Assembly: GCA_020850535.1 (NCBI GenBank)
Contig: JADZEM010000135.1
Coordinates: 1 to 64,000, forward strand
DNA from: Chloroflexota bacterium
GTDB lineage: Bacteria; Chloroflexota; UBA6077; JACCZL01
Direction of reading: 5' to 3'
DNA: 64,000 nt
The translations under genes and the position numbers were made by a program. Numbering within the stretch: position 1 is the stretch's first letter; every line of letters starts with the position of its first letter. Positions 24,704 to 34,717 of the stretch are shown here, piece after piece. The notes below the pieces were generated by a model that was given only the letters and a program-made list of their open reading frames with translations, was not told the DNA's origin and did not search any database.

Positions 24704-25414
24704 TTACGGCGCGCGGTACACCGCGTAGGTGCCAGCCTTGCGGACCGTGGCCGAGATGTACGCGTTGGACGCGCCTGGATCGGCGACCGTCGGGACCGGC
24801 GTCCACCGGTCACCGTCGAGGATGGCAAAGGTCAGGCCCGGCGTCACGCCGCCGGCGTAGGCCAGCCCGAGATTGGCGTCGGCCGGCAGCTCCCCGATGC
24901 CGCCGCCGTTGCAGCCGTCCTGCGCCCGCAGCTCGAAAACGATATCGTCCAGCCGCTGGCCCGACGTGGCCGGCACGGCGGCGGGATCGACCTTCGACAG
25001 CGTGACGCGGCTGTCGCGGCCGAACGTCGAGGTCGGAACGACGGCCAGGCGAACCGTGCCACCCGGCAGCACGAGCGACAGCGACCCGCCCTGGCCGGCC
25101 GCGAAGCAGCCGCCGGACTGGCCGGCTGGCGCGGACGGCTCGGGCATGCCCTGCGTCGGACGATGCCGGCCGCCACCATCGCCGCCGTCGCCACCATCGT
25201 GCTCGTCGCTCTCGTTGTCATCGCGGTCGTTGTCGTTGCCGTTGCCGTTGTTGTCGTTGCGGTTGGCGTTGCGCCGCTCAGGGTGGCGGTCCTCAGCCGG
25301 CGCGGCCTGCGCCGTCGAGCTGTCCCAGGTGGTGCCACTCGGGGCCACCATCGACGGCAAGCCGATCAGCGCCACCACCACCAGCCCGACAATCAGGATG
25401 CGGAACGTGTTCAT
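24704..25414 (-). CDS. Secreted protein with Asn/Asp-rich linker (paralogue 1)
   Basis: A 236-residue protein. The ATG at 25414 has GAGGGAG upstream. Residues 1-35 are a signal peptide (RILIVGLVVVALIGLPSMV). A low-complexity hydrophilic linker follows (about 45-85: NRNDNNGNGNDNDRDDNE, then GGDGGDGGG). The C-terminal ~150 residues are a conserved beta-rich domain with two Cys (GGCFAAG, DGCNGGG), LSLVLPGGTVRLAVVP, LDDIVFELRAQDGC and a final ISATVRKAGTYAVYRAP. The domain is shared with the neighbour at 25619-26416. No known family recognised. Function unknown; the linker and disulfide-capable domain fit a surface protein. Confidence 0.8.
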   Translation of the reverse strand: MNTFRILIVGLVVVALIGLPSMVAPSGTTWDSSTAQAAPAEDRHPERRNANRNDNNGNGNDNDRDDNESDEHDGGDGGDGGGRHRPTQGMPEPSAPAGQSGGCFAAGQGGSLSLVLPGGTVRLAVVPTSTFGRDSRVTLSKVDPAAVPATSGQRLDDIVFELRAQDGCNGGGIGELPADANLGLAYAGGVTPGLTFAILDGDRWTPVPTVADPGASNAYISATVRKAGTYAVYRAP

Positions 25415-25618: not shown

Positions 25619-26416
25619 CTACGGCGCTCGGTAGACGGTGTAGGTACCAGTCCTCCTGATGGTGGCCGAGATGTACGGGTTGGCCGGGTTCGGATCGGCG
25701 ACGGTCGGCACGGGCGACCAGCGGCTGCCGTCCCAGACGGCGAAGGTCAGGCCGGGCGTGGTGGGGCCAGTGTACGCCAATCCGAGGTTGGCGTCGGCCG
25801 GCAGCTCTCCGAGTCCGCTGCCGTCGCAGCCGGCCTGCGCCCGCAGCTCGAAGACGATCTCGTCCAGGCGTGCGCCAGGGGCGCCTGCCACGGATGCAGG
25901 ATCGATCTTCGCCAGCGTCAGATGGGTGTCCTGGCCGAACCGCGAACCTGGGACGATGGTCAGGGCCACCGAGCCGCCAGGGAGCGTCAGGGTCAGGGAG
26001 CCGGTCTCACCCGCGCCGTAGCACTGCGAGACCACGCCGGGGGGCGGTGGTGGCGGCGCTGGAGGGGGCGGTGGCCCGTGATGCTGATAACGGTTGTCGT
26101 TCCCGTTGTCCTCGTCGTCGTTGTCGTTGGAATTGCTGTTGGTGTTCCCGTTGTCGTCGTTGTCGTTGCTGTTGCCGTTCGTGTTCCCGTTATCGTCGTT
26201 GTCGTTCTCTGAGTTGTCGCCGTTGTCGTTGGCGTTGCCGTTGTCGTTCTGGTTGGCGTTGCCATTGCCATTGTCGTTGTCAGCCAGCACCCCGCTGGCT
26301 GGAGCGGCGCGTACCAGTCCATGTCCCCAGAGACTGCCCGCTGGCGAGACCAGCGCTGGCATGCCGACGAGCGCCGCGATCACAAGAGCGGTGAGAACCG
26401 CGCGGGAGAGTCGCAT
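25619..26416 (-). CDS. Secreted protein with long Asn/Asp-rich linker (paralogue 2)
   Basis: A 265-residue tandem paralogue of the gene at 24704. A signal peptide (LTALVIAALVGMPALVSPAG) is followed by an Asn/Asp/Gly-only linker of about 60 residues built from NDN, NGN and NDD units. A Pro-rich stretch follows (HHGPPPPPAPPPPPP), then the same C-terminal domain: SLTLTLPGGSVALTIVP, LDEIVFELRAQAGC, LGLAYTG, ISATIRRTGTYTVYRAP. On the plus strand the linker reads as GTTGTC/GTTGCC hexamer repeats. The linker is longer than in paralogue 1, showing repeat expansion or contraction since duplication. Function unknown. Confidence 0.8.
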   Translation of the reverse strand: MRLSRAVLTALVIAALVGMPALVSPAGSLWGHGLVRAAPASGVLADNDNGNGNANQNDNGNANDNGDNSENDNDDNGNTNGNSNDNDDNGNTNSNSNDNDDEDNGNDNRYQHHGPPPPPAPPPPPPGVVSQCYGAGETGSLTLTLPGGSVALTIVPGSRFGQDTHLTLAKIDPASVAGAPGARLDEIVFELRAQAGCDGSGLGELPADANLGLAYTGPTTPGLTFAVWDGSRWSPVPTVADPNPANPYISATIRRTGTYTVYRAP

Positions 26417-30158: not shown

Positions 30159-30169
30159 TTCGTCAGGTT
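30159..30169 (+). repeat. Left direct repeat flanking the composite element (TTCGTCAGGTT)
   Basis: TTCGTCAGGTT abuts the left terminal inverted repeat of copy 1. The same 11 bases occur at 34077-34087, one base beyond the right end of copy 2. It is interpreted as a 10-11 bp target-site duplication of the whole 3.9-kb unit. Confidence 0.75.
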
Positions 30170-30343
30170 AGGGCTGATTCAAAGTCCCGCACAGCGGTGT
30201 CTTGCCGAGTGACCAGATGCTTCGTCACCAGCACGCGGGGGTACCCGGCTCCTGGTGAACCGCCCGAATGACGGACTACCCGCCCCAACCAGACCGTCAG
30301 GGCTCGCCTGATTCAGTGCCTACGGCAACTTTGAATCAGCCCT
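30170..30343 (+). repeat. MITE-like element, copy 1
   Basis: 174 bp with perfect 16-bp terminal inverted repeats: AGGGCTGATTCAAAGT (30170-30185) and ACTTTGAATCAGCCCT (30328-30343). The interior is non-coding. It differs from copy 2 at only a handful of positions (for example GTGACC/GTAACC, ATGCTTC/ATGTCTC, GTGCC/GTGTC). Confidence 0.88.
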
Positions 30344-30676
30344 GGAAGCTGAGTCTCTGACCTCGTGTGGACGCCGGAGACGACCGCCAACGCGGCCTGA
30401 CCGATCCCGGTCCTACCGTCGAGACGATGGGCGACGGCTGGCAGTAGGCCGTCCGCGAAGGCCGCTCGGGGTCGTGGTGAGTGCCCTGGGTCGATCGCAT
30501 GCTGAACCGAGTCGACTGCCCGTGCCCCGACCACCGCGACTCGAAGCACACCTATCGCCACGAGTGGGCCGTGGCGCATCCGGGCCGAGCAATGGGCCGT
30601 GGAAACTGGCCGCGCTGCTTGACAGCCCCGAACGGACCGGAGCGGCGCCACTTGGGGCGCCGGGCCGCCTGAGCCC

Positions 30677-31000
30677 TCAGTGCCGACGTCGGCTGGAGTC
30701 TGGCGCGCCGCCCTGCACGACGTGGATCGGCCCCTTGCTCTGGCGCATGGGGTGAGCGATCCACGTCTCCCCGGACACCGCACTCGGCAGCAACCACTCC
30801 CCGTGCATGATCTCACGCAGCTCTCGCCGGTAGAGCCGGCGCCCGAGGCGCTGCTCATGTCGCGTGATCTCACGGGCCCTCGCTCGGATATCGTGACCCT
30901 GCGCAATCGCGCGAAGCTCGTCCGAGTAAAGCCGGCGACCGAGTTCTCGTTCGAGGGCCGGAACAGATCCGGGATCTCCATCGTCCTTGTCACGAGCCAT
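30677..31000 (-). CDS. Small basic protein with a duplicated GRRLYxxELRxI motif
   Basis: A 107-residue protein. The start at 31000 is marked by AGGAGG with 6-base spacing. It contains two copies of one helical motif: RELGRRLYSDELRAIAQG and QRLGRRLYRRELREIMHG, about 31 residues apart. The N-terminus is charged (ARDKDDGDPG) and the C-terminus ends basic (SSRRRH). No known family recognised. It follows the resolvase-like gene by 38 bp on the same strand, so the two are probably cotranscribed. The Arg-rich paired helices could bind nucleic acid (inference only). Confidence 0.65.
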   Translation of the reverse strand: MARDKDDGDPGSVPALERELGRRLYSDELRAIAQGHDIRARAREITRHEQRLGRRLYRRELREIMHGEWLLPSAVSGETWIAHPMRQSKGPIHVVQGGAPDSSRRRH

Positions 31001-31038
31001 TCGCCACCTCCTGCGCGAAGTCGTGCGCTCCATCGTCC

Positions 31039-32286
31039 TCAGGAGCGGTCGATGATCCGGATCGACGGCAGATGCGCAACCTTCTCGGCCAGTTCGCCGC
31101 TCGGACCAAAGTGGCCCCACAGCGTTCCATACGCGTCCGTGAGCACCACGTCAAACAGTCCATCGGCGGCATCCTGGAGCAGGCACTGAAAAGCCGGGCG
31201 CTTCCCCGAGGGAGCGTCGAGATCCCAGTACAGTCCGGCGAGGACGAGCCCCTGATCCTCGATGTGCCTCCTCCCCCTGGCCAAGTCCTCTCGGACCAGC
31301 TCGGTATGCTTGCCTTTCCCCCATCTCGCATAGACGACAGCACGACGGCCATCGGCCGTCGGCTGGTGCCGCCGAAGCTCGACGCCCCAGCTCTCTGATG
31401 GGGTCCCTTCCTTCTTGCTGAAAGCTGCAAGCAGACGGTCGCCGGCGTACGGGGACCATGCGGCCCCGAGCGCCGACTCGAACTCAAGCTTTCGGCGCTG
31501 CCTCCGAAGGTCACCGATCTGGGCCTCGATCTCTCTTTTGGCAGCCCAGTCGCCGCCCGCCAGGTGCAGCCGATCCATCAGGCCGCGCTCGGCACGGTCA
31601 AATTCCGAGATGGGATCGGACGAGGGCAGCCCCGCAGGCGTGGCGCCGGCTTCATCCGTGGCCGCGTCGTCCCCCACTGGGGCCAGCTCCGAGTCGTGGA
31701 TGAAGAACTCCCCGTTGGAGTCGTAGACGTTGCCAGACTCGTCTACTGTGTAGACCTCGTACGGCTTCAGTAGCTCGTCGACGAGTATCAGCCCGACCAG
31801 ATCTTTGTCCCCCAGCATCCTGGCCAGGGTGCCCATCGGCTTGGCCACGTCCGCTATGCGCCGGTCGGCAACCGCCTCGCAGATCGCGTCCAGCTCGGGT
31901 AGGGCCAGCTCCAGATTGTGCGACGACATGTGGAGATCCTCGGCGGCCGATAGGTATTCGGTTTCGGCGTCCGCGATGGCGCGTAGCTGGTCGGGCGTCT
32001 CATCGAATGCGTCGCGGACCTCGACTGCCTGTGCGACTGCTGCAGCGTAGCGCGCGCCCCAGTCCTCGGCATCGCTATCGTCCAAAAGCTGCCACGCCGA
32101 GGCCATGATGTCGTGCAGGTCGCGGAGCTTCGGCTCAAGCTCGACCATCTTCCCGAAAGCGCCGCCGATGCAGCGGCGAGCGTGCTCGACGGCGCAGTAC
32201 CGGTCCTCATCGGGCAGGAAAACCACCTCTAGTAGCGGTTCGGGAAGGTCGACAATCTGAACGTTTGGTTCGTCAGCAGTACTCAT
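31039..32286 (-). CDS. Large protein with C-terminal catalytically degenerate resolvase-like domain
   Basis: About 415 residues. Residues 1-200 are acidic and mainly helical with no family recognised; a short strand region follows (VYTVDESGNVYDSNGEFFIH), then a charged coiled-coil-like stretch (about 228-275). Residues 315-415 match the serine-recombinase N-terminal fold: RAVVYARWGKG, EDQGLVLAGLYWD, GKRPAFQCLLQDA, DGLFDVVL, with a final strand IRIID. The nucleophilic Ser (normally YARVS) is replaced by YARWG, and the Arg pair after DVVL (normally KLDRLGR) reads AYGTLWG. So the domain should not cut DNA. It may bind protein or DNA, or be a relic. Start taken at ATG 32286; an alternative GTG lies 39 bases upstream, neither with a strong ribosome site. 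Confidence 0.75.
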   Translation of the reverse strand: MSTADEPNVQIVDLPEPLLEVVFLPDEDRYCAVEHARRCIGGAFGKMVELEPKLRDLHDIMASAWQLLDDSDAEDWGARYAAAVAQAVEVRDAFDETPDQLRAIADAETEYLSAAEDLHMSSHNLELALPELDAICEAVADRRIADVAKPMGTLARMLGDKDLVGLILVDELLKPYEVYTVDESGNVYDSNGEFFIHDSELAPVGDDAATDEAGATPAGLPSSDPISEFDRAERGLMDRLHLAGGDWAAKREIEAQIGDLRRQRRKLEFESALGAAWSPYAGDRLLAAFSKKEGTPSESWGVELRRHQPTADGRRAVVYARWGKGKHTELVREDLARGRRHIEDQGLVLAGLYWDLDAPSGKRPAFQCLLQDAADGLFDVVLTDAYGTLWGHFGPSGELAEKVAHLPSIRIIDRS

Positions 32287-32555
32287 AGCAATGCCCCAGG
32301 GCACTATTGGTGGTGACTTGGCCACGCGCTCAACGCCTGTGACAACTATACATCCTTGCGATTGAATCTGGCTGACCTTCTCAAGATAGAGCAGCCGCTC
32401 TCAATCGTGAAAATCGAGAGGCCGCGACCAAACGTGAAAAGGCTCGTGCTCTCGGACCGACGCTCCCTGCGGATGTCGCGCGACGCGATCATCAGCCCTT
32501 CAGCGTTCCGCCTCTCATCCCAAAACGGTCACCATGGGGCCACGGCGTCGAGTCG

Positions 32556-32876
32556 TCAGCGCCGCCGTCGATTGGTCTCCATGCCGCCGCCTTGGTAGAT
32601 GGCCTTGACCAGACACGGCCCCTTGGGCTGCGAACCCGGAGACTTCGTACGCTCTATCACTACGATGAGCTGCCCATGCCAATTTCGGGCGAAGTGCCAG
32701 GACCACTGCGTCTCTGACAGCACGGCACGGATCGCCGCTTTGCCCACTTTCGTCTGACCCCAAGGTGGCACTCTGGCGACCATTCCCGGCCAGTAGGCGA
32801 CGCTCCACGCGCGGGCCTTCTTCATGAGCTGATCGGGGCTCTCACGCTGCTGACCACGTTCCGCGTCCATGACCAT
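32556..32876 (-). CDS. Hypothetical protein in the composite element
   Basis: A possible 106-residue protein starting MVMDAERGQQ, with GGGAGCAGG immediately before the ATG at 32876. A second ATG follows 6 bases on. It is Trp-rich (RAWSVAYWPG, WGQT, TQWSWHFARNWHGQLIVVIE) with a central strand-like stretch and a basic end (NRRRR). No family recognised and no membrane segment. It is oriented with its neighbours. The codon pattern is less biased than typical host genes; the gene call itself is moderately sure. Confidence 0.5.
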   Translation of the reverse strand: MVMDAERGQQRESPDQLMKKARAWSVAYWPGMVARVPPWGQTKVGKAAIRAVLSETQWSWHFARNWHGQLIVVIERTKSPGSQPKGPCLVKAIYQGGGMETNRRRR

Positions 32877-33011
32877 CCTGCTCCCGGCACGGCCGAAGCA
32901 CCGGTGGGCAGCGACGACCAGGGTCAAATGACCCTCCGACGGACGAGGCAGCGATCGGGCCACCGCCAGGTTGTGGCGGAGCTGCCCGGGCACCTTGTCG
33001 AGCAGATCGAG

Positions 33012-33214
33012 CTAGCTGCTTGGCGGCGTGTCCGGCTTCTGTGGCTGCTCCTGCGGCTCCTCGTCCACCGTATCGGCCGACGTCTCGGCCCACGACTCGC
33101 TCCAGGGTCGACCGGCGAATACCAGCATCTCTCCCGGCTCCGGCTCCGAGTCCAGTTCCCAGCCCAGCTCCTGGGCCAGCTCTGCGCCACTTCGTCCGGG
33201 TTGTACTTCGTCAT
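33012..33214 (-). pseudogene. Small acidic protein gene with apparent one-base frameshift
   Basis: A good start (AAGGA, 7 bases, ATG at 33214) opens with MTKYNPDEVAQ. After that the frame turns into Arg/Trp/Ser-rich shadow sequence, while the adjacent frame gives AELAQELGWELDSEPEPGE and ends PQKPDTPPSS. Restoring one G at about 33186 (GTGGCGCAG to GTGGCGGCAG) would join them as MTKYNPDEVAAELAQELGW. It is either a recent disabling deletion or a sequence error. If a start 7 bases upstream (33221) is used, a 69-residue intact frame exists, so the gene could also be functional in that form. Confidence 0.55.
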
Positions 33215-33302
33215 GATGCATTCCTTCGCCTTCGGGGTGTCAGGCCGCTTCAACCAGAGCGTAGCTCGGCTCGACCGGCGGGATCAGGGTCAACGTTGAC
33301 GG

Positions 33303-33757
33303 CTACGGCGCCGCCCAGATCGCCTGACCGCGCGTGTTGTAGACCTGGATGAACGGCATCTGACTGTCCTCGTATGTTCGCAGGATGATTCCGCCTCGCT
33401 CACCCGCTGAGTTCAACGCCAGGAGAGCACCACCGCCCGATTCGTGGGGCACGACGTGCAGGGTGACGTATGCAGCCCGAACTCCATCATTCTCTGGAAA
33501 CGATGCCTCCATCAGATATAGCTGAGGCTGTCCATCATTGGACGCGGTAAACCTACCGATCATCTCTCCGGTGTTGTTGACGAGGACGACTTCCCTCGCC
33601 ACGACGCTCTGGGTCGATGTCTGGGCATCCGCGATGCGTGGTTGCCAGTAGGCGAACGTGACAGCGGCCACGAGACTCGCGGCCAACACCACCCTCCCAG
33701 CTTCAGACGGCTGTTCTCCCGCTCCAGCCTGCTCAATCGCAGTTCGACGCTGTCCAT
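33303..33757 (-). pseudogene. Coiled-coil-TM-surface domain protein, frameshifted
   Basis: The start ATG at 33757 (GGGGGAG upstream) encodes MDSVELRLSRLERENSRLKL, a short coiled coil typical of a family of small anchored proteins. The expected TM helix (VVLAASLVAAVTFAYW) lies in a different frame immediately after. It continues intact through VVAREVVLVNNTGEMIGRF, LHVVPHESGGGALL, GGIILRTYEDSQMPF and QAIWAAP to the stop at 33303. One missing G in the GGAGGGTGG run near 33695 explains the break. It is the first gene inside the right end of the composite element. Function of the family is unknown. Confidence 0.7.
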
Positions 33758-33901
33758 GTCTCCCCCTGGACGACCGGCTCGGCTGCGAGTCGGTGTGATC
33801 CGCCCCCACCCAGACCGTGGACAGCATGCCGTCATGCCGTGGCCGGGTTGCACCAGGGGTTGCCGGCCGTGTACGCAGGGTGACTCTCGCCGTCCCCTCG
33901 T

Positions 33902-34075
33902 ACGGCTGATTCAAAGTCCCGCACAGCGGTGTCTTGCCGAGTAACCAGATGTCTCGTCACCAGCACGCGAGGGTACCCGGCTCCTGGTGAACCGCCCGAA
34001 TGACGGACTACCCGCCCCGACCAGACCGTCAGGGCTCGCCTGATTCAGTGTCTACGGCAACTTTGAATCAGCCCT
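33902..34075 (+). repeat. MITE-like element, copy 2
   Basis: 174 bp, same orientation and length as copy 1. The left terminal repeat has one mismatch (ACGGCTGATTCAAAGT) and the right (34060-34075) is identical to copy 1. The left flank (GTCCCCTCGT) does not match its own right flank, consistent with both copies having moved together as ends of one unit. Confidence 0.88.
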
Positions 34076-34076
34076 G

Positions 34077-34087
34077 TTCGTCAGGTT
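34077..34087 (+). repeat. Right direct repeat flanking the composite element (TTCGTCAGGTT)
   Basis: Identical to 30159-30169. One base (G34076) separates it from the last base of the perfect terminal repeat. Confidence 0.75.
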
Positions 34088-34144: not shown

Positions 34145-34717
34145 TCAGGCTTGCGGGGCCGAGACGGCCCGAGCCGTCAGGTGCCGGATGGTGGCCGGCA
34201 CCAGCGGCGTGGCGATGGCCTGGGAGATCTCCCGCAGCTGCTCGGCCTGCTCGGGCGTCAGCCGGTCGAACAGGTGGCGGCGGACGCCCTCGACGTGGCC
34301 CGGCGCGGCGGCGGTGAGGGCAGCATGGCCGGCCTCGGTCAGCAGCGCGAACGTGCCACGGCGGTCTGTCGGGCAGTCCACGCGCTGGACCCAGCCGCGC
34401 TCTTCGAGCCGCCCGATGGCGTGCGTCAGCCTGCTCTTCGAGAACCGCAGCATCTCGGCGATCTCGGTCATCCGCAGGGAGCGCTCCGGGCTCTCAGAGA
34501 GCACGACCAGGATGCTGTAGTAGGTGTGCGGCATGTCGGCGGCGTGCTGTAGCTCACGATCGAGTTGATCCATCAGCAGGTGCGTGGCCAGCAGGAACGC
34601 CCGCCAGGCCCGGGCCTCGCTGGGGGAGAGCCAGGGCACGCCCGCCGACGCGCCAACGGAGGCGTCTGGGGACGCAGCCGGGCCGGGCTGAGTCGGCACG
34701 TCAAGCAAGTCGGACAC
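34145..34717 (-). CDS. MarR-family transcriptional regulator
   Basis: About 190 residues. After a disordered Pro/Ala N-terminus, the winged helix covers about 30-165. It shows THLLMDQLDRELQHAADMP (dimer helix), LRMTEIAEMLRFSKSRLTHAIGRLEERGWV (helix-turn-helix and recognition helix; core EIAEMLRFSKSRLTHAIGRL) and the wing RVDCPTDRRGTFALLTEAG, with the conserved D-x-R-R. MarR dimers usually repress divergent or neighbouring genes and respond to small phenolic or oxidant ligands. The aldo/keto reductase gene diverges from it about 215 bp away and is a candidate target. Start taken as GTG 34717; a longer frame exists and no clear ribosome site decides. Confidence 0.9.
   Translation of the reverse strand: MSDLLDVPTQPGPAASPDASVGASAGVPWLSPSEARAWRAFLLATHLLMDQLDRELQHAADMPHTYYSILVVLSESPERSLRMTEIAEMLRFSKSRLTHAIGRLEERGWVQRVDCPTDRRGTFALLTEAGHAALTAAAPGHVEGVRRHLFDRLTPEQAEQLREISQAIATPLVPATIRHLTARAVSAPQA

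Follow-up and report, generated by a model that had tools for sequence, protein, structure and literature searches.

An orphan protein on a small mobile element ends in a truncated serine-recombinase core that lacks its catalytic residues

Serine recombinases carry out no strand cleavage or exchange by the known route without their nucleophilic serine, their active-site arginine pair and their dimerisation helix. In the large serine recombinases and phage integrases examined here (the TP901-1 integrase, 3bvp, and Azospirillum and phage homologues), the catalytic domain lies at or near the N-terminus with its serine intact, and complete proteins of this group have a long further part after it. 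IS607 transposases, such as TnpA of ISC1926 (PDB 6dgc), are built the other way round: an N-terminal DNA-binding domain and a short linker precede a catalytic domain that keeps its own active-site Ser, its Arg residues and helix E. C-terminal placement of a recombinase catalytic domain therefore has an active precedent.

We analyzed a gene from a Chloroflexota bacterium, in a stretch of 64,000 nucleotides (hereafter the window), whose product ends in a domain of this family. The gene and its parts are as follows.

31039..32286, minus strand: open reading frame of the protein in question, 415 aa, with its ATG at 32286 and its stop at 31039
31348..32286, minus strand: N-terminal region, residues 1–313, predicted to be mostly helical, of no recognisable family
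31039..31347, minus strand: serine-recombinase catalytic core (b-a-b-a-b-a-b), residues ~314–415, from sequence and structure
31318..31320, minus strand: codon of Gly323, which the alignments put opposite the nucleophilic Ser (YARWG instead of YARYS)
31114..31125, minus strand: codons of Thr388 to Gly391, which align with the R-x-x-R pair of the active site

By sequence, the closest proteins are the large serine recombinases and phage integrases (~22–34% identity in the core). The arrangement resembles that of IS607 TnpA, with the catalytic domain C-terminal to another region, and IS607 TnpA is also the best structural match. Unlike IS607 TnpA, the 415-aa protein has lost or lacks the Ser, the Arg residues and helix E, and its N-terminal part has ~310 residues. 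A preliminary description of this DNA had called the domain order reversed. This holds with respect to resolvases and integrases, but not as a unique trait, since IS607 transposases share it.

Evidence for a serine-recombinase core

The open reading frame looks coding over its whole length, as its GC content by codon position (0.72/0.44/0.77) is similar in all four quarters. The best codon-usage scores belong to this frame over most of the region, and of 300 random islands of matching composition, 3 had a frame as long. Set against the neighbouring chromosomal genes (mostly about 0.9), GC3 is lower at 0.79, which fits a foreign origin. The product is a two-part protein, in which an N-terminal region of ~310 residues, predicted to be mostly helical, precedes a truncated serine-recombinase core, and the coding periodicity extends across both parts.

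All of the resolvase-domain motifs named in the preliminary description are present in the product. In Pfam, the domain matched the PF00239 profile at E = 0.014, which lies below the gathering cut-off. With the C-terminal domain alone as query, a PHROG integrase was matched at E = 7e-4. Searches of plasmids by tblastn returned Azospirillum serine recombinases (best 1e-5), and the annotated tblastn matches of the domain were recombinases or integrases. Scored against a profile of 22 Ser-intact recombinases from which it had been left out, the query reached 39 bits, versus 4.3 bits for the best of 1000 shuffles; the 39 bits are somewhat generous, because the relatives were picked partly by likeness to the query, but the gap is large. 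These 22 were taken from 27 viral relatives, retrieved using the query aligned with two recombinases. The serine is kept in all 27, most of which have the recombinase domain at the N-terminus or close to it. Of the two search patterns, one spanned the Ser place and permitted Ser or Gly there, so retrieval was not restricted to Ser-intact proteins.

Structure prediction pointed the same way. The full-length model made without an alignment was poor (mean pLDDT 48); the b-a-b-a-b-a-b order was already visible at residues 315–413 of this single-sequence model. An AlphaFold model of the domain, guided by the 22 relatives, reached a pLDDT of 77 and a pTM of 0.73, with the proviso that an alignment of recombinases biases the model towards the family fold. 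Its best match in the PDB was 6dgc (Z 13.6, rmsd 2.1, 98 residues), the C-terminal catalytic domain of the IS607-like ISC1926 TnpA. All matches at Z 8.7 and above were serine recombinases, and unrelated folds appeared at Z 7.5 and below. In fold and sequence, then, the domain belongs with the catalytic core of PF00239, its Pfam score itself being under the gathering cut-off.

That score, and the low confidence of the unguided prediction, are what one would cite for a chance similarity, the domain having in truth some other alpha/beta fold. This explanation is largely refuted, and we give it hardly any probability: the profile score stands far above that of every shuffle, the annotated tblastn matches are recombinases or integrases, and the best matches among solved structures are all serine recombinases. 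Residues ~314–415 are a genuine serine-recombinase catalytic core, and the homology is real.

Loss of the active site and of the dimerisation helix

In the alignments, four catalytic positions are replaced (Ser-10 by G323, Gln-14 by H327, Arg-68 by T388 and Arg-71 by G391) and three are retained (R321, D355 and R363 as equivalents of Arg-8, Asp-36 and Arg-45), in gamma-delta numbering. The core residues Y-A-R, D, R-P and F-D remain in place, and it is near-invariant catalytic residues that have been lost. Both the nucleophilic Ser of Y-x-R-x-S and the Arg pair of R-x-x-R, by which a functional serine recombinase is recognised, are absent, which bears out the losses noticed earlier. The protein also ends right after the fourth core strand (b4), before the aD/aE helices, and lacks the long dimerisation helix as well as every DNA-binding part. 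Deprived of nucleophile, Arg pair and dimerisation helix, the protein cannot cleave and exchange strands by the known route, and its C-terminal core is, as judged from its sequence, catalytically dead. In the literature searched, coverage of which was incomplete, no serine-recombinase pseudoenzyme of such a kind was described.

We give about an even chance to a non-catalytic, binding role for the core. It would survive as a plain alpha/beta scaffold that binds protein or nucleic acid, and the N-terminal helices would give the protein its main role; most likely, the protein would then be accessory or regulatory for the element or its host, rather than a recombinase. Several observations favour such a role. 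The homology lies well above that of shuffled sequences, the PDB matches down to Z 8.7 are exclusively serine recombinases, and the strand and helix order emerges in the single-sequence model too. Core residues have been kept as near-invariant catalytic ones were lost, and codon periodicity persists through the C-terminal quarter of a frame that is intact across 415 codons. A point on the other side is that the alignment of recombinases behind the second model leans that model towards their fold.

A dead core might instead pair with intact recombinase subunits and block or tune them, much as an inhibitory paralogue does. It shares its fold with serine recombinases, and the same genome encodes two further proteins whose PF00239 scores exceed the cut-off. 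However, the usual partner surface is absent along with the dimerisation helix, and a serine recombinase was not identified within the element that carries the gene. We regard such interference as improbable.

The N-terminal region and the search for relatives

The ~310-residue N-terminal part gave no meaningful match in Pfam, NCBIfam, PHROG or PADLOC (the last including no match to a defence family), in keeping with the earlier statement that it could not be assigned. Residues 1–300 had no match in phages or plasmids. The single-sequence model of the region is of low confidence except for a helical hairpin at 225–276. In Pfam, the region matched HetR_C alone, below threshold, and this match was rejected; a MerR-like DNA-binding domain, which IS607 transposases carry at the N-terminus, was not among its Pfam matches. 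A likeness of residues 224–307 to release factor 2 (L019; 48 bits against one RF2) was ascribed to chance, with 0 of 30 other release factors showing it. Further weak matches (L021, L026 and L011, and L002, by eye a radical-SAM-like protein) were put down to chance or taken as unrelated.

Homologues of the fusion, or of its N-terminal 300 aa, were not found in viral contigs, phages or plasmids, in the class, in 400 genomes of the phylum, or in 84,980 species genomes searched by short-pattern scans. Such contig scans use short conserved patterns, which diverged relatives would escape. Conservatively varying the protein copy, so as to widen the search pattern, gave no match in species genomes or viral contigs. 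On these searches, the 415-aa fusion gene appears so far to be one of a kind. The lack of homologues weighs against a binding role, as it leaves nothing that shows selection for the dead form.

The mobile element and its cargo

The gene was earlier described as carried on a mobile element. This stands, and the element can now be delimited as a 3.9-kb unit with paired 176-bp copies and a 10-bp target duplication.

30169..34076, strand not applicable: whole mobile element, 3,908 bp, from the paired 176-bp copies and the 10-bp duplication at its outer edges
30169..30344, plus strand: left terminal unit, 176 bp, with inverted GGCTGATTCAAAGT ends
33901..34076, plus strand: right terminal unit, 176 bp, in the same orientation and 96% identical to the left
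30159..30168, plus strand: left copy of the target-site duplication, TTCGTCAGGT
34077..34086, plus strand: right copy of the target-site duplication, TTCGTCAGGT
30677..31000, minus strand: downstream open reading frame, 107 aa, 38 bp past the stop of the 415-aa gene

Each 176-bp copy is bounded by perfect inverted GGCTGATTCAAAGT ends, a sequence with four matches within the window versus 0.07 expected. The window contains the 10-mer TTCGTCAGGT exactly two times, immediately beyond the two outer ends of the element, and we interpret the pair as a target duplication belonging to the entire 3.9-kb unit. Terminal inverted repeats and a target duplication are the marks of a composite or MITE-type element. 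The element ends read (C/T)AGGGCTG, with the 10-bp duplication; ISAs1-type elements have terminal CAGGG ends and an 8–10-bp duplication. The ISAs1-type transposase genes of this genome are broken pieces, and no match of their ends to the element was established. No transposase was recognised inside the 3.9-kb element, so one acting in trans would be required for its movement. The 176-bp unit had no match in plasmids, and a search of 60 relatives revealed no empty site of the element. MITEs and other non-autonomous elements that are mobilised in trans, such as MITEAba12 (PMC6382973), likewise are short units with terminal inverted repeats and a target duplication and no transposase found. The present element differs in that two copies bound a cargo of 3.5 kb and that the repeat occurs nowhere else in the genome.

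Two other reading frames of the cargo deserve mention. The 107-aa frame (30677–31000) contains an internal duplication of the motif L-x-R-R-L-Y-x-x-E-L-R-x-I and has no clear relatives, with one weak match (L096). A small gene at 33303–33850 (minus strand; MDSVELRLSRLERENSRLKL... then ...VVAREVVLVNNTGEMIGRF...) appears split between two frames, which suggests a frameshift or an assembly error.

The state of the cargo bears on a further explanation, in which the 415-aa gene is a chimeric fossil. Transposition or deletion would have severed the 5' end of a large serine-recombinase gene and fused it in frame to the end of an unrelated orphan gene, leaving a functionless tail whose catalytic residues drifted away. 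The recombinase is indeed represented by its first ~100 residues only, the fusion has no relatives that we could find, the gene is carried by a mobile element, and its small neighbour looks frameshifted. By the same token, that the neighbour looks split speaks against a binding role, for the whole cargo may be decaying. Yet the frame has stayed open, and its C-terminal quarter shows undiminished coding periodicity (GC 0.70/0.47/0.75 by codon position). Moreover, the losses fall largely at catalytic or near-invariant positions, and the core motifs remain. We consider a fossil a serious possibility, though somewhat less than an even one.

That the protein represents a new kind of regulatory or binding protein borne by mobile elements, with the core, devoid of catalytic residues and dimerisation helix, as its C-terminal binding module, seems to us unlikely. 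If selection acts on the dead domain, this would be a recombinase pseudoenzyme in which the domain order is reversed, and would show that binding alone can be reason enough to keep the fold; if not, the gene would be a clear case of chimerism on a small non-autonomous element. In both cases the protein is a singleton until relatives are found, and any new function proposed for it is guesswork, not a result.

The window contains no tRNA or Rfam feature. Just outside the element lies a MarR-family regulator (34145–34639, minus strand), and a stretch elsewhere (G000:C37) matches part of it at 82% identity. At 24704–25414 and 25619–26416 (minus strand), two adjacent paralogous predicted proteins have long Asn/Asp-rich low-complexity stretches. 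A mobile-gene cluster of the same genome (L093; G000:C136:20500-30500) holds a serine recombinase and a broken ISAs1-type transposase, together with reading frames that by eye resemble a group II intron reverse transcriptase.
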